From a virus, in IMG/VR virus record IMGVR_UViG_3300009161_000003, positions 48,923 through 112,922 of that record: a stretch of DNA of 64,000 nucleotides; one strand, given 5' to 3'. Shown here piece after piece: positions 2,726 through 49,189 of this stretch. The notes under the pieces are model-generated. The model did no database searches and was not told the DNA's origin. It saw only the letters and a list, made by a program, of their open reading frames with translations. Both the position numbers and the translations under genes were made by a program. Each line of letters begins with the position of its first letter. Positions within the stretch are counted from its first letter, which is position 1.

Positions 2726-3442
2726 TTATGCTTCATCATAGATCTGAGGTAATGGAAAATAATGTTGTTCCCAAAAAGTTTCATGTTCTTGAAATTTAGA
2801 ATTAAGAAAATCTTTTTGTAAAGCCATATTTAATGGAATTATATCGTATGCAATTGTAATTCTTGGACCATCAAAATTCCAATCAGACATTGCGTGTGGA
2901 AAACCAACTAAAGACAATATTGCACGATTATTAATGTTATGATTTATTTTTATATCTCCATTAATATTATAATGTGTTTCAGAAGGTTCTGCACTTACAG
3001 AATAATATCCATGAAGAGCAAAAACTTTACGATCTGGATGCACATGATCATGCCAATTTAACTTTCCACCCTTTTCATTATTGTTAATATTAAACCATGA
3101 TTGACATACAAATTTTTGACTATTATAGTCCACATCATAATACTTACAGGCTTCTCTTGTCATGTCAACAACAGAGGAATAAAGGTCATGGATAAATGGG
3201 TAGTACATTTTAAAAGCATTATATTCTCTAGATTTTATTGTAGAAATAGAATTTGATTCTTTAAAAAATTCATTTTCTGGATGAAGAGTATCAAACTTTT
3301 TTACTCCACGCATTTCACCATTAAGAATTCTATCATATTCAAATTCTAAAACTTCTGTTGCTTCTTTTAAATCTATATTTAAATCTCTATAAAAAAACTT
3401 TTGTGGCTTATAGTTTTTATTAAAATAAGGTACCTTGCCCAT
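2726..3442 (-). CDS. Fe(II)/2-oxoglutarate oxygenase-like protein
   Basis: This complete 238-residue protein is a paralogue of the partial one at the left edge. The jelly-roll pattern is clear: QSWFNIN, a WHDH-x-HPD metal-ligand region, LHGYYSV and AEPS-x-THY strands, then a distal FPHAMSDW His and GPRITIAYDI with the Arg expected to hold 2-oxoglutarate. This fits the PF13759-like oxygenases common in phages; the substrate is unknown. A near-consensus promoter lies just upstream, so it can be expressed separately from the lysis/surface genes before it. Confidence 0.75.
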   Translation of the reverse strand: MGKVPYFNKNYKPQKFFYRDLNIDLKEATEVLEFEYDRILNGEMRGVKKFDTLHPENEFFKESNSISTIKSREYNAFKMYYPFIHDLYSSVVDMTREACKYYDVDYNSQKFVCQSWFNINNNEKGGKLNWHDHVHPDRKVFALHGYYSVSAEPSETHYNINGDIKINHNINNRAILSLVGFPHAMSDWNFDGPRITIAYDIIPLNMALQKDFLNSKFQEHETFWEQHYFPLPQIYDEA

Positions 3443-3469
3443 AAAACCCCTTCAGTAGTAGATACATTA

Positions 3470-3499
3470 ATTGTACCACTTAAAGGGGTCTTATGTCAA
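3470..3499 (-). promoter_or_regulatory. Sigma-70-type promoter (TTGACA-N18-TACAAT)
   Basis: The minus strand has a perfect TTGACA at 3499-3494 and TACAAT at 3475-3470, separated by 18 bases, 27 bases upstream of the ATG at 3442. CCCCTT and AAGGGG stretches flank the -10 and could form a hairpin at the start of the message. Confidence 0.75.
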
Positions 3500-3515
3500 C
3501 TAAGGGGATTTGTCC

Positions 3516-3806
3516 TTATTTAGACTTTTTGTCCACTGACGAGAATGCTGCATTAATTTCTTGAATTGTAAGTTTGCCATCGTCAAGAAACCCTCTAGCC
3601 AGTCTTTCAACTACAGTTGCCACTCCTAGCGTTCCAGCCAGAATAACAGCCTTTGTTGTACTAATTCCCACTACTGCTCCAGCACCTATTACAGATAGTC
3701 CTGATGCTGCAAATACCGCAACAATTCGCATAACAATATTATTTATGCTTGCAATTGCTCCTGATCCGACTTGGGTAGCCTCTTCAATTTGTTTTGCTCT
3801 TGCCAT
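3516..3806 (-). CDS. Small membrane protein, possible holin-like
   Basis: This 96-residue protein has two adjacent hydrophobic Ala/Gly/Val-rich segments (about residues 22-48 and 50-66) and a charged C-terminus with an EF-hand-like DDGKLTIQE stretch. Length and layout fit small phage membrane proteins, holins among them, but no family is recognised. AGGAGG precedes the ATG. It lies two bases after another two-helix protein, and the pair follows a large secreted protein that also carries DGKL-type repeats. The lysis role is inference only. Confidence 0.6.
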   Translation of the reverse strand: MARAKQIEEATQVGSGAIASINNIVMRIVAVFAASGLSVIGAGAVVGISTTKAVILAGTLGVATVVERLARGFLDDGKLTIQEINAAFSSVDKKSK

Positions 3807-33851: not shown

Positions 33852-34478
33852 TTACACTTCTTCCATAGAAACCGATACGTCCCATAAGTCATGGTTGGTT
33901 TGACCACGTTTTGTAACGGTATATGAAAAATCAGAAATATAAACTTCAACAATTTCAGTATATTGATCTAAGTGTGCATATCTATCATCGGTTTGATCAT
34001 CCGCAAAATTGTTAAACTTGTCATACGATAGGAACATCCAAAATGGTCCAGTGTGGTTCTCATACCAATCTAGCATTTCTACACCGCCAGCACCCCCGTC
34101 AGCCGTGTATTCTGACCCCTGTGTAGTTACTCCAGTAGAGTCTACCCAGTCTGGTCTTCCACCATATGATCTTGAAGGAATGTTATTCCAACTTGTGCTA
34201 ATTGTATTTTTATCAGCAATATGAAAAGACCTCATGTTGCCATTTACCATTCTTTGCCTTTGTTCAATTCTTTCTGTTTTAAAATCTAATGGTGCTCTGT
34301 TGTGATCAGATAAGATTAAAAATTTATTTAGATTTGTAGTAGCAGTTGTATATGCACCTATTTCAATTCCGTCTGGAACGTAAATTCCATTTTGTAATGT
34401 ACCTGGATTTTCTGACCAGATAATGGCTTGTGGTCTTCCAAAACGTTTTCTTCCTGCGGTATATGCTGCGGTAGCCAT
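33852..34478 (-). CDS. Distal tail protein or tail hub component
   Basis: This 208-residue protein lies between the tape measure and the large tip protein, where siphoviruses place the distal tail protein. It is beta-rich with many aromatic residues (NTISTSWNNIPSRSY, GPFWMFLSYD) and ends with strands that include VEVYISDFSYTV, as in tail-tube-like folds. It shares one base with the tape measure gene. The family call rests on position. Confidence 0.6.
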   Translation of the reverse strand: MATAAYTAGRKRFGRPQAIIWSENPGTLQNGIYVPDGIEIGAYTTATTNLNKFLILSDHNRAPLDFKTERIEQRQRMVNGNMRSFHIADKNTISTSWNNIPSRSYGGRPDWVDSTGVTTQGSEYTADGGAGGVEMLDWYENHTGPFWMFLSYDKFNNFADDQTDDRYAHLDQYTEIVEVYISDFSYTVTKRGQTNHDLWDVSVSMEEV

Positions 34479-37400
34479 TAGTAACCCCTAATTCTTTGAT
34501 TTTCAATCATCTTAATTTGATTGATAACTGTTCGTGCAATATCATTTGGATTGGCATTACTGTTAGAAACATTAACGCTAAGGTTATAATTATACAGGGT
34601 TTTGGAATTATTTACTTCTGTTTGTGACCCACTAAGATTTTTAATAGAGGACATTGCTTCAGGAGTTGTAAATGTTGGTGAGTTTATAGCACCAAGAAGA
34701 GGCCCAAAACTTTGTGTTGCTTTTTTATTAACAACATATTCTCCAGGAGTAAGCATTGCTGGAACAGTATCAGTTCCACGAGCCAGACCACCAGATGCCA
34801 TGTATTTAGGAACCATTCCACCCATTGCACCAGTAAATCCAGGAATGCCGAGATAGTTTAAAGGGTTGTAGGATGATGTTTTGGGTGCAGTCTGCTTTTT
34901 GGGCATATCGCCAACCCCACCCAAATATCTGCCAAATTGGGTGGCCCAATCAAGTGCTGGTGCTGGTGCTGCCGAAACTAAAGTCGCTGCTGCTGCTTGG
35001 GCTGCTGCTTGCGCTGCTGCTGCTTCTTTTGCTTTAATTGCATCTTCTGCTTTTTGATCAGCAAATGTTGTATTACCTTTAGTTCCAAGTTCTGCTTTTG
35101 CTGCTTTCATTGCAGCATCTGCTGCCTGGATAGATTTTGTTACATCAGTTAATGCAAGTATTGTTGAGTCAGCATCTCCCTTTACATTCTTAAGAATATT
35201 TCCAAGGAATTTAGAATCATTTGGATCAATACCTGCTTCTAATGCTAACTTAATAGCACTACCTGCTGCTGCAATTTCAACTCTTGTTAGTCCTAAAGTA
35301 TCTTTAAGAGTTAAATCAAGTTTATCTTTTGCAAGTCTAATGTTGTTTGTTATATCACTTAAACGATCTGCAATAACTTTATTGTCTGCCTCAATTTGAA
35401 CTCTGGTTAATCCGTTTGGAGAAGTAACAGATTCAAGTGCATTTGTTTTTGCTTTTTGCAAGGCTTCCATTCTTGTTTTTGCAACTTGTTGAATTTTTGC
35501 ATTTCGGTAATCTTGCATTGCACTGCTTGCTGCACTAATATCTCCCTTTGCAAGTGCATCAGCAATTGACATTTTTGTTGAAATAAGTTGATTATTTTTT
35601 TCAGCAAGAGCATTGATCTCTTCTAATGCTGAAATCTGTTTATCATAAGTTTCGTTTATCTTATCTTCTTGCCTTGAAATTAAATCTAAATTATAGTTAT
35701 TATCATTTTGTTTTGTTTCTAATTTAGATTGCTCAAGAACATATTGGTTTTCAATTAGTTTTTCTTGCAATGCCACAAACTTCTCAACTATATTAAATCT
35801 TGCAACTTGACCATCCATCTCATCCATTAATGCTATCTTTTGAGCATTATCATATTGTTTTTGTGCTGCAGTTAATTCTTCTGTTTGTGTTAATAATTCT
35901 TTAAGTTGGGCTGGGCTAAGTTCTTTATTGGCAATAGCAAGTGCAATGGTTTGATCACTTGCTAACTCCATAGCCTGTGCATAACTAAATCCAGCATTAC
36001 GCAAAACAGACATAGCGCCTACTTGGTTTTTAATTCCAGCAATTTTATCTGTTAGTTGGGTTTGATATTCTCCCAATTTAATTGCTGTAAATGCTTTATT
36101 TAATGCATTTCCCAATTCAGTTAATTTCATTGAAGCAGTGCCTGCACCAGTAGTAATTTTGGCTAAATCTTCTTGCAATCCTTGTGGGCTCATAGCATCT
36201 ACAAAGTCTAAGAAATCTCTGCTTACTTTTCCATCTGCCATTAATTTTTGATCAATACCTTTAAATTGTGTTATTGATGCATTTTTGCCCATTACTTTTT
36301 TTAATTCTTCTGCTCCACCAATTGCATTAATTGTTGAGTTTTGAACAAGTTTAAGTTTCTTAAGTGTGTCATCATATGTAGTATCTCTTTCGCCACCGCC
36401 ACCTTTTTTTCCTGGTTTAAATGCTTTACTAGCATCTTTTGCTGCTTCAGTTATTTTGTTTGCTTTGTCTGTTGCCATTAAATCCGTTACTTGTTTTGCG
36501 GTTGTTAATTTTACACTTTTTTTATAACCTTTAGGATTAAACTTTCTGTCTTTTGCATCTCCTGTTAAAGTTCCTACTTTATTTTTATTAAATGTTAGTC
36601 CTTTTTCACCCATAAAATTTTTAACATCTTGGCTATTTAGATCAATAGTTTCTGTTGTAGTTACCAGTGCTGTCATGTATATCTTTTTTTGTTCATCTGG
36701 AAGTTTGTTGTAATACTCTAAATCAGTGTTTAATGCGCTTAGTGCTTTTGGATTTGCTCCTAACAATTTTGTGGTAACTTTCATGTCAATTTTACCTTTT
36801 TGTTTTTGTATCTGTGCTATTGTTGTTTGCAAAGCAGCAGCACCAAGTTTATTTTTTTCAACGTAGTTACCAATAACTTCCATATCTAAAACAGTTCCCA
36901 TTTTTCCAAGCGTTCCATAAAAATCTATAAGTTTTTGTGCTTCTTCAGGGGTTTTTCCGTGAACACTTAAAACAAGATCTTTTTGTATTTGATCTAAATC
37001 TTTTCCTGTGCCTTTTTCAGTAAACATAGAAGCAACTGCCATAGCCTCATTTCCAACTACTGCACCAAATCTTGTCGTTATATCCATAAACTTTTGTGCG
37101 CCTGCTTTGTCTCCAGTAAACATATCAACCATATTTAATACTTGCATTGGATCCATTTGACCAGACGACAACTGCATGTTGATTAAATATTCATGTTCTT
37201 TATTTAATCCTAAACTTTGTATTTGTTTTGATGCTTCTTCGGCAACTGGTGCTAGAGCAGTTCCTTTATATTTATCAATTGCAGCGCTTCTTGCTCCTTT
37301 TAATAATAAAGTTTGTACTTTTCCATCACTTGCTTTTTTATAAGAATTTAATATATCTGTATTAAGTGATGCATTTGTGGCAAGCAGTTTTATTCTTCCA

Positions 37401-40400
37401 GTTTCATATTCCCCTCTTAATTTTTCTGCCTCTACAAGTTTTCCTTCTGATTCAAGTAATTGTATTTTCTTTTGATTTTCAAGATCATAAGAATCTAAAA
37501 GTTCTTGACTTTGTTCTAAAGCAATTTTTTGCATTGCAACGGATGCTCCAGTTGATTTTGCAATTCTATCATTTCTTTGTTTGGCTCCTATTATTGCTCC
37601 TCCTATTCCGCCAATAATAGTTCCAGCAACGGCTCCAATAGCAGTTCCTATTAATGGAACAATACTACCAACTATTGCACCTGCTGCTGCGCCAGCGCCC
37701 ATACCAGCAGCAACACTACCTACCCCAATTACAATATCTTTTGGATTTTTTTTAAAACTTCCTGAAGCATTTGCTGCATTAGATGCAATATCCATTCTGG
37801 TTTTACTATCTTGAATAAGTTGTGTTTTAATTGTTAAAGGATCTTTAAGAAGGTTTTCACCTTTTGGTCCAAATAAATCAATTAGTTTGGCGTTTACAGT
37901 TATGCCAAGTGCTCTATCACCCATTGCTTCACCAATATTTGCAGCAACACTTCTTGCTTGTGCTGGTGTCATAATTCCGCTAGATATTGCTGTTGCAAGT
38001 TGAGCAGTTAATTCGCTTTGTGCAAGTTGTTGTCCACCTGGGCCGCCATCTTTTATTCTTTGTCCAAAATCTTTAACCATTTGTTGTCCTTTTTCACCTT
38101 CAACAAATGATTCTCCAAATGTTTTTTTGCCTGTTTTAATTTGAAATTGAGATAGTTTATCATTTCTTCTTCTATCCATAATTTCTCTTGCAGAAACTTT
38201 TCCAGTTGTTTCTGCTAGTTCTTTCATAGATTTTGCCCCTGCGCCCATATTAACTGTTGTCTCTATTGTTTTCTTTAATAATGCTTCATTTGATTTCTTT
38301 AAAATAAAATATGTTGCAGCAAGTCCAACAATTCCTACTGCTAGCGCACTCTTTGGTCCTTGAATCATTGTCATGGCCATTGTTGCTGCAGTTAATCCAC
38401 CCAAGGCTCCTTGATATTTTTGAGCAGTTTCATTACCCATCATACCTAGTGCCATGTTTCCCATCATAACTGTTGACATTGCCATGCTAGAACGTTGCAT
38501 CATTTTTTGGCTTCTTGCCTGTTGTGCTGCCCTTGTTTGTTCATCTACAGGTGCAGAAGATTTGTTAAAATTAAATCTAGATTTTTGTGTTTTTTCTTCT
38601 TCGTTTGTCAGTGCTTGAGCCCTTGCTTTTGATGCTGCAATTGTTGCTGCCTTTGATGCTGCAGTTGCTTTTTTTGTTTTGTTACTTTTAGAACGAATGT
38701 CACCAGTTTTCCTGTATTGAATATTTCCAGAATTCATTGCTTGAAGAATTGGACCATGTTTTTGTGTTGCTGCTTTATTTACTACAAACTCTCCAGGTGT
38801 TAGTAATGCTGGTACAGTGTCCTTTTCTCCATACCCTGGAACTGAACCACCAGACGCAAATTTCTTTGCTGTACTAAAATTTTTAAATCCGATTCCTTGT
38901 CTCATTTTTAAATAGTTATAAATCATATTTGGTGCTCTTAACATTTTTTGATGTGATTCTGGTAGTAAATCAAAATCTTTTTGGCTTCTAGGGAAAAGCC
39001 CCATAAGAGCAGTAGCATTAGGAGATTTAGCAATCATTGCATTTGCTGCTTTGACAACGTGAGAACTAATACCACCAATTTGTTTTAATCTTGCCACTCC
39101 TTTGTTAGGATCTACCTTACCTCTAGATGTCATTCCTTTATCTGCAGATCTTCCTGCTCTGTAATCGCTTGCAGCAAGTTTAACTATATTTTTTGTTATA
39201 TCTGCTGTACTATTTCCTTGAATAGCCATAAAACGTTTGTATAGTCTTTTATAGGTTGGACCATTTATGCCTTCTCCTTCAGACATTGCACCAGCAAGGG
39301 CATATCTCATTCCCATTTCTTTTTTCCATTTAGTAGGATTTGAATGTATTTTTAAATTAGTGTCAAGATCTGCTAAGGCCATTTTCATAAATTTAGTATC
39401 TTGTTCTAATTTTATTGCACTTTGTTTATTAGGTGGTTGTGGTGGTCTTGATGTAAGTTCTGCTAATCTATTTTCAATACTTTTCTTTGATTTTACTGCA
39501 TCTTGATAAGTTAAAGGATATGGTTTTGCAACATCAAGGCCACTTTGTTCACTAATTTGATTATAGCCGTGATTTCCTAAAATAGTAAAACCACTGTCAA
39601 TCTTTTTTCCAAACTTTGAACCAGCAGCAGTATGTAAGTTTGAATCTTTTCCACTTGTAAAATGTAATTTTTCTAAAGAGTTTAAGGTTGGATCATATTC
39701 TCCTCTTAATCTAAAACCTCTAGAAACCAATATTTTTCTAAATGCTGGATCTTTAATTGAAACTCTATGACCCTTTTCTCCTGGTCTTTGAACGGGTTGA
39801 GTTGTTGGTTTTTTAATGTTTTGAGTTTTTCCTTCAGCGTGTATTTTATGAATTTCTTTCCAGTTAATCTTCTTAGCGTCTTCAACTCTTTGAACCATCT
39901 GAGAGTAAGCAACTTTTTCTTCTGGGTTAAGATTAAAAGACCCAATAGAAGATTTTAATTTAGGAAGAACTCTATCTAATTCTTGTATCATTGCTTTTTC
40001 ATATTGTGCAGGAGTCATTGATTGTGCTATTGATCTTGTTGCATCAGCAAAGTATCTTTTTGCCCCACCTTTTACTCCTAGGAAGTTTACCATTGCTTGA
40101 TCTTTTACTGGAAGCATTCCTCCAAAGTTTCTTTTTCCAGATGCAGTTCCAAAAACTCCAGCAGGCCCTACGTCAGCAAGAATACTTCCAGACAAATTTG
40201 ATTTTGATAAATCTTTGTCTCCTCTAACAACAGAAGCAACTGCCTGCTTAACAAAATCAGATTTTGTAAATTCACCACTCATTGCTGCAAATCTTGGATC
40301 AAACTTAGACTCTAGAACTATTAACCTTCTACTTGGATTATTTGGATCAACCATTGTGGATAACTTTTGTTCTGGTGAAACTAATCCATGAACATCTCTT

Positions 40401-42967
40401 GCAATTGTTGTTCCACGCATTTCTGCTAAAGCAGATTTTTCATCTAAGAATGGTTTAACAAAAACTTTAGATCCGTCTGGTCTTTCATAAATACCACCAA
40501 TTCCAGGAACTGGAAAACTTCTTCCACTTGATTCTGCAACTAACTTTCCAAAGTTTTTTGGTCTAACTTTACCAAGATTACTATTTTTAACTTCATTATC
40601 AATTTCATCTAATACTGCATCTTGTTGTCTTACATCTTGAACTTGTTTAAAATTATTAGGCATTCCTAAAAATAATTTTTTCTTTTCTGCTTGTGCTTTT
40701 TGTTTTGCAACAAGTGCTTTAGCATATTCTATTGATCCTACACGGAATTGTGGTAATGTTGGATCATATCTTGGTCCACCCTTTATTTCTCCAGCATAAG
40801 GATCTCCTCCAGTTCCATTACCACGTAAAACAAATCCACCTTTATTTAATCTTTGTAAAAATCCTTTATTTTCTTGTGCTGCGTCTTTTGTTACAACAAA
40901 TTCTCCTGGAGTTAATACTGCTGGAACTGTATCTTTATTTCCCGTTCCAGGAACAAAACCTCCTGATGCAAATTTTTTTGGACCTAATCCGCCCTTCATC
41001 ATTCCTGGATTTATTCTTGCAAAATTTATTCCTGCAACGTTTGCTTTTTGGTATGCTGCTGCCAAAGCGGTTGCTGCTGCAGTTTCTGCTGTAAATGTTT
41101 GAATTAATCTTGAGTGTGATTGATTAAGGGCTGTAGCAACTGTTGCTGCTTCAATTTGTTCAGAAGACATGTATCTAGTTTGATTACCTAAAAAGTTAGA
41201 TTCTTTTCCTAATCCTAAAAATCCATTTCTTAGTGTTAAAAATAATTTAATTATATTTGCTGCACCGTTGGCAATTAAACCAAAGGTCATGAGCAATGCT
41301 GGTCCTACTAATCCAACTGCTCCAATTAACATTACAATTGCTTTTTTACTTCCATCTCCAAGCCCGTTAAATTTTTCTAATATTTTTCCAATAAATTCTA
41401 CAATAGGAGTTATTGCTTTAAGGAATTGTTGTCCAACTGGAGCAAGCGAAACTTTAAGGTTTTCTAATGATTTTTTAAATTTAGTTCCAGTTGCATTTTC
41501 TACTTTTGCAAGTTCTCTTTCTGAAAGAATTGCAAGTTCTTCTATTGATGCTCCTGCTAAATCTAGTGTCTTTGAAGCCTGTGTTCCACTTTGTGTAACG
41601 TTTTGAAATAATGTTGATAAACGTGAAAATTGAAACTTGCCAAACAATTGTTCAATGGCTCTTGATCTTTCTAGTGGAGCAAGTGTATCGAGTGCTTGTG
41701 CAAACTGGATAACAGTATCTTTAATATTACCTTTGTTTGATTCAACAATTCCATTAATGTTAATGCCTAAATCTAAAAGAAACGCTGATGCTTTCTTTGA
41801 TGGATTAATTAATGATGCAAGACCAGATTTTAGTGCGTTAGCACCTTCTGAAGCATTGATTCCACCTTCTTTCATTGCAGTCATAAAGAATGCAAGATCT
41901 TCAACATCTCCACCAAGTTGACGAATAACTGGTCCTGCTTTAGGAACTGCTATAGTCAAGTCTTCAATATTTAAAACTGTTTGGTTTTCTACAGCGTTAA
42001 GAAAATCAATTTTACCTTTTAATTTATCTGCTTGTATTCCAAATGCATTTGTTAATGATATGGTAGTTTTTAAAGCATCTGCTTGTTCAACGCCACCAAG
42101 AACGGCAAGCCTTGTTGCTTCCGCAACTTGCGCCATTAAATCAGAACCCATCTTTCCGGTAGCAGCAGCGTCTGCAGCCATCTCCATTGTTTTCTCAACA
42201 GCAACGCCATACTTTGTAAATGATAAGGCTAATAGTTGTACTTCTTTTAATGCTTTTTCTGCTTCTCCAGAAGTTGTAAACATTTCTCCATATACACGTT
42301 TAAATCTAACTGCTTGTTTTTCCAAAGCCATAAATGTTTTTCCTGCTGTTGTTCCAAGCATTGTTAGTGGAACGGTAAAACCAACCATCAACTGACGTCC
42401 AGCCCATTGAGTATTTTTACCAAAGTTTAATAGGTTAGTAGAACCTTGTTTTAATAGTTGTCCAAATAATTGTTGTTTCTGTGCAGCAATAGCAGTCTTT
42501 GTTGCTAAATGATCCATGTCTAATGCAAGCGGTCTTACTGCTATTGATTGAATTGCACCGTTTGCTGTTCTACCCATTTTAATATATTGGGTCTGCATTG
42601 TTTTAAGACGTTCTTCTGATACCTTGCCAATTGTGTCATACTCTTGTTTGAAAAGCCTACTAAATGTTTTTGTTGCACCACCAGCATATCTAAAATATTC
42701 TCTAGTGGAAAACTTGTTTCTTTCTAATGAATCGGTAAAACTGTCAGCAGAACTTTTTATTGTCGTAAGACCTGCTGAAAACTTTCCAGTAGCATTTACT
42801 GAATTTATAAGATTGCTTTGTAGATTTGCTTGTGCTTTCGCAGCAGCGGAACTTGTAGTTGCAACTGAAGCATGAAAATTTGCAAGTTGTCTTTGAAGTG
42901 CTTTTAATTGTCCAAGTGCTTGAGAGGCGTCGAGATTAACCTCAATATTGGATTGTACATCAGCCAC
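34478..42967 (-). CDS. Tail tape measure protein with embedded kinase-like domain
   Basis: The 2829-residue protein (GTG start, AGAGG upstream) sets tail length. It has an N-terminal coiled coil, a TP901/PhageMin_Tail-like region (about 150-560: MFTTSGEAEKALKEVQ, GGINASEGANALKSGL), hydrophobic segments, a glycine zipper (about 1740-1790) and three copies of an ASGG...DTVPA-x-LTPGE-(F/Y)-VV motif at about 664-695, 1367-1397 and 2720-2747. Between copies one and two, residues about 800-950 hold kinase-like landmarks: FVK Lys838, Glu849, D919-x4-N924 and an ADVG Asp932. That domain is inferred from spacing only. No lytic domain was found. Confidence 0.85.
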   Translation of the reverse strand: MADVQSNIEVNLDASQALGQLKALQRQLANFHASVATTSSAAAKAQANLQSNLINSVNATGKFSAGLTTIKSSADSFTDSLERNKFSTREYFRYAGGATKTFSRLFKQEYDTIGKVSEERLKTMQTQYIKMGRTANGAIQSIAVRPLALDMDHLATKTAIAAQKQQLFGQLLKQGSTNLLNFGKNTQWAGRQLMVGFTVPLTMLGTTAGKTFMALEKQAVRFKRVYGEMFTTSGEAEKALKEVQLLALSFTKYGVAVEKTMEMAADAAATGKMGSDLMAQVAEATRLAVLGGVEQADALKTTISLTNAFGIQADKLKGKIDFLNAVENQTVLNIEDLTIAVPKAGPVIRQLGGDVEDLAFFMTAMKEGGINASEGANALKSGLASLINPSKKASAFLLDLGININGIVESNKGNIKDTVIQFAQALDTLAPLERSRAIEQLFGKFQFSRLSTLFQNVTQSGTQASKTLDLAGASIEELAILSERELAKVENATGTKFKKSLENLKVSLAPVGQQFLKAITPIVEFIGKILEKFNGLGDGSKKAIVMLIGAVGLVGPALLMTFGLIANGAANIIKLFLTLRNGFLGLGKESNFLGNQTRYMSSEQIEAATVATALNQSHSRLIQTFTAETAAATALAAAYQKANVAGINFARINPGMMKGGLGPKKFASGGFVPGTGNKDTVPAVLTPGEFVVTKDAAQENKGFLQRLNKGGFVLRGNGTGGDPYAGEIKGGPRYDPTLPQFRVGSIEYAKALVAKQKAQAEKKKLFLGMPNNFKQVQDVRQQDAVLDEIDNEVKNSNLGKVRPKNFGKLVAESSGRSFPVPGIGGIYERPDGSKVFVKPFLDEKSALAEMRGTTIARDVHGLVSPEQKLSTMVDPNNPSRRLIVLESKFDPRFAAMSGEFTKSDFVKQAVASVVRGDKDLSKSNLSGSILADVGPAGVFGTASGKRNFGGMLPVKDQAMVNFLGVKGGAKRYFADATRSIAQSMTPAQYEKAMIQELDRVLPKLKSSIGSFNLNPEEKVAYSQMVQRVEDAKKINWKEIHKIHAEGKTQNIKKPTTQPVQRPGEKGHRVSIKDPAFRKILVSRGFRLRGEYDPTLNSLEKLHFTSGKDSNLHTAAGSKFGKKIDSGFTILGNHGYNQISEQSGLDVAKPYPLTYQDAVKSKKSIENRLAELTSRPPQPPNKQSAIKLEQDTKFMKMALADLDTNLKIHSNPTKWKKEMGMRYALAGAMSEGEGINGPTYKRLYKRFMAIQGNSTADITKNIVKLAASDYRAGRSADKGMTSRGKVDPNKGVARLKQIGGISSHVVKAANAMIAKSPNATALMGLFPRSQKDFDLLPESHQKMLRAPNMIYNYLKMRQGIGFKNFSTAKKFASGGSVPGYGEKDTVPALLTPGEFVVNKAATQKHGPILQAMNSGNIQYRKTGDIRSKSNKTKKATAASKAATIAASKARAQALTNEEEKTQKSRFNFNKSSAPVDEQTRAAQQARSQKMMQRSSMAMSTVMMGNMALGMMGNETAQKYQGALGGLTAATMAMTMIQGPKSALAVGIVGLAATYFILKKSNEALLKKTIETTVNMGAGAKSMKELAETTGKVSAREIMDRRRNDKLSQFQIKTGKKTFGESFVEGEKGQQMVKDFGQRIKDGGPGGQQLAQSELTAQLATAISSGIMTPAQARSVAANIGEAMGDRALGITVNAKLIDLFGPKGENLLKDPLTIKTQLIQDSKTRMDIASNAANASGSFKKNPKDIVIGVGSVAAGMGAGAAAGAIVGSIVPLIGTAIGAVAGTIIGGIGGAIIGAKQRNDRIAKSTGASVAMQKIALEQSQELLDSYDLENQKKIQLLESEGKLVEAEKLRGEYETGRIKLLATNASLNTDILNSYKKASDGKVQTLLLKGARSAAIDKYKGTALAPVAEEASKQIQSLGLNKEHEYLINMQLSSGQMDPMQVLNMVDMFTGDKAGAQKFMDITTRFGAVVGNEAMAVASMFTEKGTGKDLDQIQKDLVLSVHGKTPEEAQKLIDFYGTLGKMGTVLDMEVIGNYVEKNKLGAAALQTTIAQIQKQKGKIDMKVTTKLLGANPKALSALNTDLEYYNKLPDEQKKIYMTALVTTTETIDLNSQDVKNFMGEKGLTFNKNKVGTLTGDAKDRKFNPKGYKKSVKLTTAKQVTDLMATDKANKITEAAKDASKAFKPGKKGGGGERDTTYDDTLKKLKLVQNSTINAIGGAEELKKVMGKNASITQFKGIDQKLMADGKVSRDFLDFVDAMSPQGLQEDLAKITTGAGTASMKLTELGNALNKAFTAIKLGEYQTQLTDKIAGIKNQVGAMSVLRNAGFSYAQAMELASDQTIALAIANKELSPAQLKELLTQTEELTAAQKQYDNAQKIALMDEMDGQVARFNIVEKFVALQEKLIENQYVLEQSKLETKQNDNNYNLDLISRQEDKINETYDKQISALEEINALAEKNNQLISTKMSIADALAKGDISAASSAMQDYRNAKIQQVAKTRMEALQKAKTNALESVTSPNGLTRVQIEADNKVIADRLSDITNNIRLAKDKLDLTLKDTLGLTRVEIAAAGSAIKLALEAGIDPNDSKFLGNILKNVKGDADSTILALTDVTKSIQAADAAMKAAKAELGTKGNTTFADQKAEDAIKAKEAAAAQAAAQAAAATLVSAAPAPALDWATQFGRYLGGVGDMPKKQTAPKTSSYNPLNYLGIPGFTGAMGGMVPKYMASGGLARGTDTVPAMLTPGEYVVNKKATQSFGPLLGAINSPTFTTPEAMSSIKNLSGSQTEVNNSKTLYNYNLSVNVSNSNANPNDIARTVINQIKMIENQRIRGY

Positions 42968-48067: not shown

Positions 48068-49189
48068 TTAGGAAGCAGCAATGTCCTTATAGGCAATTGC
48101 GTCTTCTTCTTCAATTTGAACACCAAAACGTACGAATACGGTGTATTCAATTGTATCTTTCTTTGGAACATATTGACGATTGACGGTAATATCCCGTTGG
48201 AATCCCCAAATACGGTTCTGTGGGAAAGTAAGATCGACATAATCTTCTGGATAGTAAGGAACTTCCATTACGTCAACGCCAAGTACACGAGTGGTACGGG
48301 CTCCTCCGAATGTCTGTCCTACACCATCAAGATAGTCTTGACGATTTGCTTGTGTGCTACCGTTACGGCTTGAGAAAGCCTCAGAGATAGCATCTGCAAG
48401 GGTACCGTTATTTTTAACGATACTTTGGAATACGTCTGTACCTGCATAGAACTTAAGATTGTTCTTAAGTGCACGATACTTACGTGGCATTGCATTGATA
48501 ATGCCTTGCATAACTGGAGTTGTCCAGTTATCTGATACAACTGCTGGGAGAACTGCATCGTGTGCTTGTCCCGCTCCAGTTCCTGTTACAATTTTTTTCT
48601 TAAAGCCTTCCATAATAGAAAGGAATGATCCTGTTGAACCATCTCCGTTAATAGCCAAATCTTCGATATCATTACCGAATGCGTTGGTCATCAAACGAAC
48701 AAGATGATCTTCAAGAGCAGCACCTTCAATATTATCTTCTAGACCTTCTGATGTAACTTCCCAATCAAGACGAATCTTTTTGGTTGTTAATTCTACTTTA
48801 GAAAAAGTAGCACCAGCGTTTGTATATGCACCACTGCCTTGAGCAGCAGCACGAATTACACGCTCACCAACGTTAACTTTTTCAAGTTCCATTGTATTTG
48901 CTCGCATTGTAACTCTACGTCCATCTTTTGCAAGAACAGTTGCATCCCAAACATAGTCAATAAATTGACGAGCCTGCTCAGGTCGTAGAATTCCACTACC
49001 TGCTGCACCCGAAGGATTTACAGCGTTTGGTCCAGTTGTGACTCCGGAAAGAGCAGTAGGAATATTTCCTAAAACTCCTGATGCTGGAGTTGATACTCCA
49101 CCAATTCCACCAGAGGCGAATCCACCTTCAGCGTTATAAGCGCCTACAACGGAGTTTCCTGGTTGGTTTTTAATAATTTCTTCTGACAT
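48068..49189 (-). CDS. Major capsid protein
   Basis: I place the start at ATG 49189, six bases after GGAGGTG; a TTG five codons earlier lacks a ribosome site. The 373-residue protein directly follows the prohead protease and is closed by a strong terminator. Residues 1-70 are Gly/Ser/Thr-rich and may be the scaffold-like segment; the rest has the HK97-type pattern, with RQFIDYVWDATVL, SKVELTTKKIRLDWEVT, DLAINGDGST and a final QIEEEDAIAYKDIAAS strand. It forms the head shell. The family call rests on layout, size and context. Confidence 0.85.
   Translation of the reverse strand: MSEEIIKNQPGNSVVGAYNAEGGFASGGIGGVSTPASGVLGNIPTALSGVTTGPNAVNPSGAAGSGILRPEQARQFIDYVWDATVLAKDGRRVTMRANTMELEKVNVGERVIRAAAQGSGAYTNAGATFSKVELTTKKIRLDWEVTSEGLEDNIEGAALEDHLVRLMTNAFGNDIEDLAINGDGSTGSFLSIMEGFKKKIVTGTGAGQAHDAVLPAVVSDNWTTPVMQGIINAMPRKYRALKNNLKFYAGTDVFQSIVKNNGTLADAISEAFSSRNGSTQANRQDYLDGVGQTFGGARTTRVLGVDVMEVPYYPEDYVDLTFPQNRIWGFQRDITVNRQYVPKKDTIEYTVFVRFGVQIEEEDAIAYKDIAAS

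Follow-up and report, generated by a model that had tools for sequence, protein, structure and literature searches.

Tape measure proteins fill the tail tube and exit before the DNA; those of several phages also form the membrane channel or make contact with it. Tape measures are currently viewed as rulers, as DNA conduits and as carriers of cell-wall enzymes, and virion proteins that contain an enzyme domain are, as a general kind, already known. Effectors delivered by the virion include T4 Alt, the Dar proteins of P1 and toxins linked to MuF.

The locus described here is a tape measure gene in a window of 64,000 nucleotides, which covers positions 48,923 to 112,922 of the 112,922-bp IMG/VR virus record IMGVR_UViG_3300009161_000003. 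Structure prediction and comparison of homologues show computationally that residues ∼773-1045 of the predicted protein are a discrete, real kinase-fold domain. On balance, and with modest confidence, we favor the reading that this is a probably active kinase domain of a new family, carried as optional tape measure cargo and acting in the host as a virion-carried effector; its use of ATP, its delivery and its target are the steps that we infer.

The 2829-amino acid ORF was matched by the PHROG tape measure profile (E 4e-93) and by PF10145 from Pfam (E 1e-22). These matches, the length of the ORF and its place in the tail gene cluster identify it as a tape measure protein, the identity that an earlier sequence-only reading had given it. 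The genes upstream include those for portal, prohead protease and capsid protein, and the order portal-protease-capsid-...-tape measure matches that of the Streptomyces phages Yaboi, Gilson and Coruscant (Stanwilliamsviridae). The conserved N-terminal block reaches residue ∼660, and the N-terminal part is ∼30% identical to those of Streptomyces phages of the Stanwilliamsviridae kind. Alignment of the part behind the variable slot with Streptomyces tape measures was also suspected and was dropped when a profile search showed none. The DTVPA-LTPGE repeats recorded in the earlier reading were found at residues 679, 1383 and 2733. A glycine-zipper-like segment scored 24.3 bits against PF13488, just under the cut-off of 25; glycine zippers and channel formation by tape measures are summarized in PMC10240207. 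Elsewhere in the record, a WhiB-family gene (G000:C1:42779-42952, outside the window; PF02467, E 7e-14) supports an actinobacterial host, which it fits despite ∼35% G+C. The window also contains a single tRNA-Thr (TGT) gene at 1887-1958. The features of the tape measure gene are collected in Table 1.

Table 1. Window coordinates of the tape measure gene, its predicted kinase-fold domain and associated features
Feature	Position	Strand	Residues and basis
Tape measure protein gene	34478..42967	(-)	2829 aa, GTG start; PHROG and PF10145 matches, gene order
PF10145 N-terminal tape measure domain	41639..42214	(-)	252-443
DTVPAVLTPGE motif 1	40901..40933	(-)	679-689; front edge of variable slot; repeated DNA
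Kinase-fold domain (predicted)	39833..40651	(-)	∼773-1045; AlphaFold2, Foldseek, 42-sequence alignment, 106 distinct homologues
Candidate nucleotide-binding loop SSGRSFPVPGIGGIY	40484..40534	(-)	∼812-828; between first two strands in model
Lys838, β3 lysine (VFVKP)	40454..40456	(-)	106/106
Glu849, helix-C glutamate	40421..40423	(-)	106/106
Catalytic loop GDKDLSKSN (putative)	40196..40222	(-)	Asp919 at 40211-40213, Asn924 at 40196-40198; D917, D919 and N924 106/106
D-x-G loop (ILADVG)	40166..40183	(-)	Asp932 at 40172-40174; D932 and G934 106/106
Hypervariable segment after kinase	38858..39766	(-)	∼1068-1370; identity among relatives
DTVPALLTPGE motif 2	38789..38821	(-)	1383-1393; rear edge of slot; repeated DNA
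Glycine-zipper-like segment	37571..37705	(-)	1755-1799; PF13488 E 3e-5
DTVPAMLTPGE motif 3	34739..34771	(-)	2733-2743; near C terminus; repeated DNA

A scan of IMG/VR revealed relatives of the kinase domain in at least 389 stretches. A visible 5' end was available for 98 distinct kinase domains, and in 97 of these the ORF also encodes the tape measure N-terminal domain. Given that the single exception, L091, has its N-terminal domain immediately upstream in an overlapping ORF of a different frame, it represents a broken reading frame rather than a gene of its own; here (L091:4042-8960), the tape measure is split between N-terminal domain and kinase, by a sequencing error or a programmed frameshift. 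Every checkable copy of the domain sits within a tape measure gene. No relatives were found in GTDB genomes by scans with the domain or in cultured phages by tblastn with domain sequences, and no family in Pfam, PHROGs, NCBIfam or PADLOC matched the segment convincingly. Weak matches of the designed helical bundle, Toxofilin-like and similar kinds fell in the C-terminal portion, which is helical, and were attributed to composition. Given the lack of GTDB, cultured-phage and library relatives, all members of the family found here come from the genomes of uncultivated phages. A search of the open-access literature turned up no tape measure described as having a kinase domain, and both the enzyme family and its combination with a tape measure appear to be new.

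The segment had been described as looking inserted, and comparison of relatives bears this out. Among the 61 tape measures closest to that of the window by N-terminal domain and with a visible end, the kinase domain is present in 25 and absent in 36, and kinase-less tape measures exist whose N-terminal domains are 70-80% identical. On a tree of the N-terminal part, the presence of the domain needs 11 changes, at least 6 of which are forced by well-supported branches. Median tape measure length is 2942 aa with the domain and 2571 aa without it (p 6e-8), and the conserved region behind the slot starts at residue 1499 in the former and 1123 in the latter (p 7e-11), a shift of ∼376 aa. The extra length is confined to one place, the slot, which in the protein of the window is bounded by the first and second DTVPA-LTPGE motifs. 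The identities of domain and carrier are weakly correlated (Spearman 0.22), and in L243 a carrier ∼80% identical to others bears a kinase that is just 28% identical; as judged by identity, domain and carrier evolve nearly independently. Given this weak correlation, the case of L243, the optional presence of the domain and the changes on the tree, the module has been gained, lost and swapped.

Several further observations concern the slot. Better conservation of the kinase than of the carrier is not a general rule: it is seen in the most distant blastp pairs, but the overall medians are 62% for carrier and 52% for kinase. Behind the kinase, a conserved HRVSIKDPAFRK-LVARGF joint leads into the hypervariable segment, the content of which differs greatly in close relatives; it is 97% identical in L003 and 34% identical over the aligned stretch in L004. 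In the IMG/VR tape measures without kinase (L207-L278), unrelated sequences fill the slot from the first DTVPA-LTPGE motif to the conserved rear, and Pfam gave nothing convincing for the cargo regions of ten kinase-less tape measures.

An active kinase might instead work in the producing cell during tail assembly, with no role in the next host, and control maturation by acting on targets such as the tail chaperones, the tube protein or the tape measure itself. Such a function would agree with the invariable location of the domain in a structural protein, and the sequence holds no proof that the segment is ejected. Assembly, however, does not need the kinase, given the 36 close relatives that lack it despite their similar N-terminal domains, and repeated gain, loss and swapping suits cargo better than a core assembly enzyme. 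We therefore regard an assembly function as unlikely. Optional, exchangeable cargo on a conserved carrier, as found here, is characteristic of a virion-delivered effector.

Models of the domain were obtained with AlphaFold2. The earlier of these, which used 6 close sequences, was poor (pLDDT 48), and a fold search with it returned mostly kinases, none of them significant. With 42 sequences, for which homologues were gathered by iterated searches, residues 773-1054 were modeled with a pLDDT of 91.0 and a pTM of 0.89. A conserved LFLGMP lead-in to the domain starts near residue 766 (window 40672). In the first half of the model, the numbering of which plus 772 gives the protein residue number, two β-strands (36-40 and 53-56) are followed by a β-strand with Lys838 and a helix with Glu849. 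The second half starts with two β-strands and a long helix. Asp919 and Asn924 lie in the loop that comes next, which a short hairpin separates from the Asp932-x-Gly loop, and helices complete the model. As modeled, the order of these elements is that of a kinase N-lobe followed by a C-lobe. The sequence-only reading had placed a kinase-like segment at 40000-40650; the segment is real and was predicted to be two-lobed with its elements in kinase order, not coiled coil, although its extent had been drawn slightly short, the domain continuing to ∼39833.

A Foldseek search of the PDB with the second model matched CtkA (3akl/3akk, E 1.2e-3, probability 0.99), PI4KIIIβ (E 4.4e-3, probability 0.98) and HipA (3dnu, E 1.2e-2, probability 0.89), and the remaining rows among the matches listed were also kinases. 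The two-lobed architecture of a protein-kinase-like fold is thus present in the model despite a PDB E-value of 1.2e-3 at best. Given that no PDB match passes 1e-3 and that TM-scores were 0.35-0.39, the domain stands well apart from all solved kinases. The top BFVD match was A0A6J5MJB0, a phage protein annotated as PI3/4-kinase (E 6.6e-5), and among the next were phage proteins with ADP-ribosyltransferase, transferase or portal annotations.

These matches raise the question of substrate. The domain might phosphorylate a lipid or other small molecule in the manner of a PI4-kinase and so alter the host membrane at the injection site. PI4KIIIβ is among the top PDB matches and the PI3/4-kinase-annotated protein heads those in BFVD; actinobacterial membranes contain phosphatidylinositol, the WhiB-family gene points to such a host, and the same protein contains the glycine-zipper-like segment. 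The protein kinases CtkA and HipA, however, match equally well or better, PF00454 finds nothing in the kinase domain or elsewhere in the record, and substrate cannot be told from fold similarity. The similarity of the model to PI4-kinase makes a lipid substrate possible, whereas the CtkA and HipA matches favor a protein substrate; action on host lipid is, in our estimation, improbable.

The motifs picked out in the sequence-only reading were located at the residues given there: VFVKP at 835-839, ALAEMRG at 846-852, GDKDLSKSN at 916-924 and ILADVG at 929-934. An alignment was made of 106 distinct domain sequences, all from viral contigs and as little as 25% identical in pairs; Lys838, Glu849, Asp917, Asp919, Asn924, Asp932 and Gly934 were identical throughout. 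Only 40 of ∼278 columns are at least 98% conserved, and by a simple calculation the chance of finding all of five chosen columns among those 40 is ∼5e-5. The ordered set of β3 Lys, helix-C Glu, Asp-x4-Asn and Asp-x-Gly agrees with the secondary structure of the model; the kinase-order signature proposed earlier is therefore beyond chance, its five residues being invariant and its model confident. The candidate nucleotide-binding loop includes Gly815, Ser817, Phe818, Gly824, Gly825 and Tyr827, all invariant in 42 sequences, and may bind nucleotide. In close relatives, dN/dS of the kinase domain is 0.09-0.33, similar to that of the N-terminal tape measure domain, which shows computationally that the domain is under purifying selection. 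Given these values and the invariant motif residues, free variation of the motifs is argued against, and so is the alternative, raised with the original observation, that the domain is a remnant. The kinase-fold domain is probably active, as judged by its conservation, and would use ATP.

The spacing from Asn924 to Asp932 is 8 residues, compared with 18 in Escherichia coli HipA (N314 to D332) and 13 in typical protein kinases. This short spacing, together with the structural nature of the carrier's known job, would accord with a pseudokinase or structural domain in which the fold takes up space or serves in binding and has no catalytic activity. Five catalytic residues identical in all 106 homologues down to 25% identity are not what a mere spacer would retain, and we consider loss of catalysis very unlikely. 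That tape measure rod sequence should show this motif order by chance, as the failure of Pfam, NCBIfam and PADLOC to recognize a family might suggest, is largely refuted by the confident globular model, by the kinase fold matches among the PDB rows listed and by the invariance of exactly these motif residues, and is hardly credible.

If the domain is a virion-carried effector, its action can be envisaged as follows. The module would occupy the variable slot that separates the conserved N-terminal domain from a membrane-active rear part, and during tail assembly it would be packed with the tape measure inside the virion. Upon infection, the tape measure would be ejected ahead of the DNA, and the kinase domain would arrive in the envelope or in the cytoplasm of the host, an actinobacterium, refolding after entry. 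It could then phosphorylate a host molecule before phage gene expression, either easing takeover or blunting a defense.

Other cargo-like segments were observed in related tape measures. A second kinase-like segment, HGDMHPGN...DWG, occupies a slot near the C terminus in L073 (residues ∼3050-3290), L082, L084 and L105, the carriers being tape measures of 3900-4200 aa that also bear the kinase studied here; its matches to ABC1 and APH kinases stayed below threshold. This C-terminal slot was seen by eye to hold a metalloprotease-like motif, HELIHLL, in L102 (residues ∼3050-3330) and an ART-like stretch, FHGG...LFTTSS, in L087 (residues ∼3290-3650); Pfam gave no confirmation of either segment. 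An OmpA-family domain (PF00691, E ∼1e-18) occurs in the tape measures of L114 (residues 2791-2884) and L073 (residues 2711-2804). The kinase, second kinase, protease-like and ART-like slot contents resemble an exchangeable effector repertoire on a conserved carrier.

A broader proposition, plausible but rather less than evenly balanced in our view, is that, across a large group of uncultivated actinobacteriophages, the tape measure serves as a general carrier of exchangeable effector enzymes, which are delivered before phage gene expression. The kinase studied here would be the commonest recognizable cargo, with the second kinase type and the protease-like and ART-like segments in other slots. 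If the effector reading is true, the tape measure becomes a delivery vehicle for signaling enzymes, which would provide a direct handle on phage action in the first minute in the host, before gene expression. The domain would also represent a kinase family that is new and has a short catalytic-to-DxG spacing. The kinase-less sister tape measures make its function testable by comparison.

Among known kinases, HipA and CtkA (HipA_C, PF07804) share the order Lys, Glu, Asp-x4-Asn and Asp with the tape measure domain and are among its best PDB fold matches. In the best sub-threshold profile alignment, that with HipA, the lysine and glutamate columns stand in the same register. By contrast, PF07804 gave no match in the domain, and hhalign comparison with 8 HipA proteins gave E-values of 0.16-0.2 at a probability of <1%, which is not significant. 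The sequence-only reading had noted the residue order of HipA-type kinases; the domain is HipA/CtkA/PI4K-like by predicted fold, and its placement in HipA by sequence is not supported. E. coli HipA also differs in its longer Asn-to-Asp spacing (18 versus 8), and HipA is a stand-alone toxin encoded next to a HipB-like antitoxin, whereas the domain described here lies within a tape measure ORF of 2829 aa and has no such partner. The PI3/PI4 kinases (PF00454), represented by PI4KIIIβ and the annotated phage protein A0A6J5MJB0, match the domain in fold and differ in the carrier protein.

Tape measures with cell-wall enzymes likewise have an enzyme embedded in the tape measure, as in the related Streptomyces phage Yaboi, whose tape measure contains a peptidase M23 domain (PF01551, E 1.9e-22). 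Those enzymes open the wall, whereas it is not obvious how a kinase-fold domain would help to penetrate it. T4 Alt, the P1 Dar proteins and the MuF-linked toxins are head-internal or head-linked, whereas the kinase is located in the tape measure; like them, it would enter with the DNA, and it is optional, swappable cargo.
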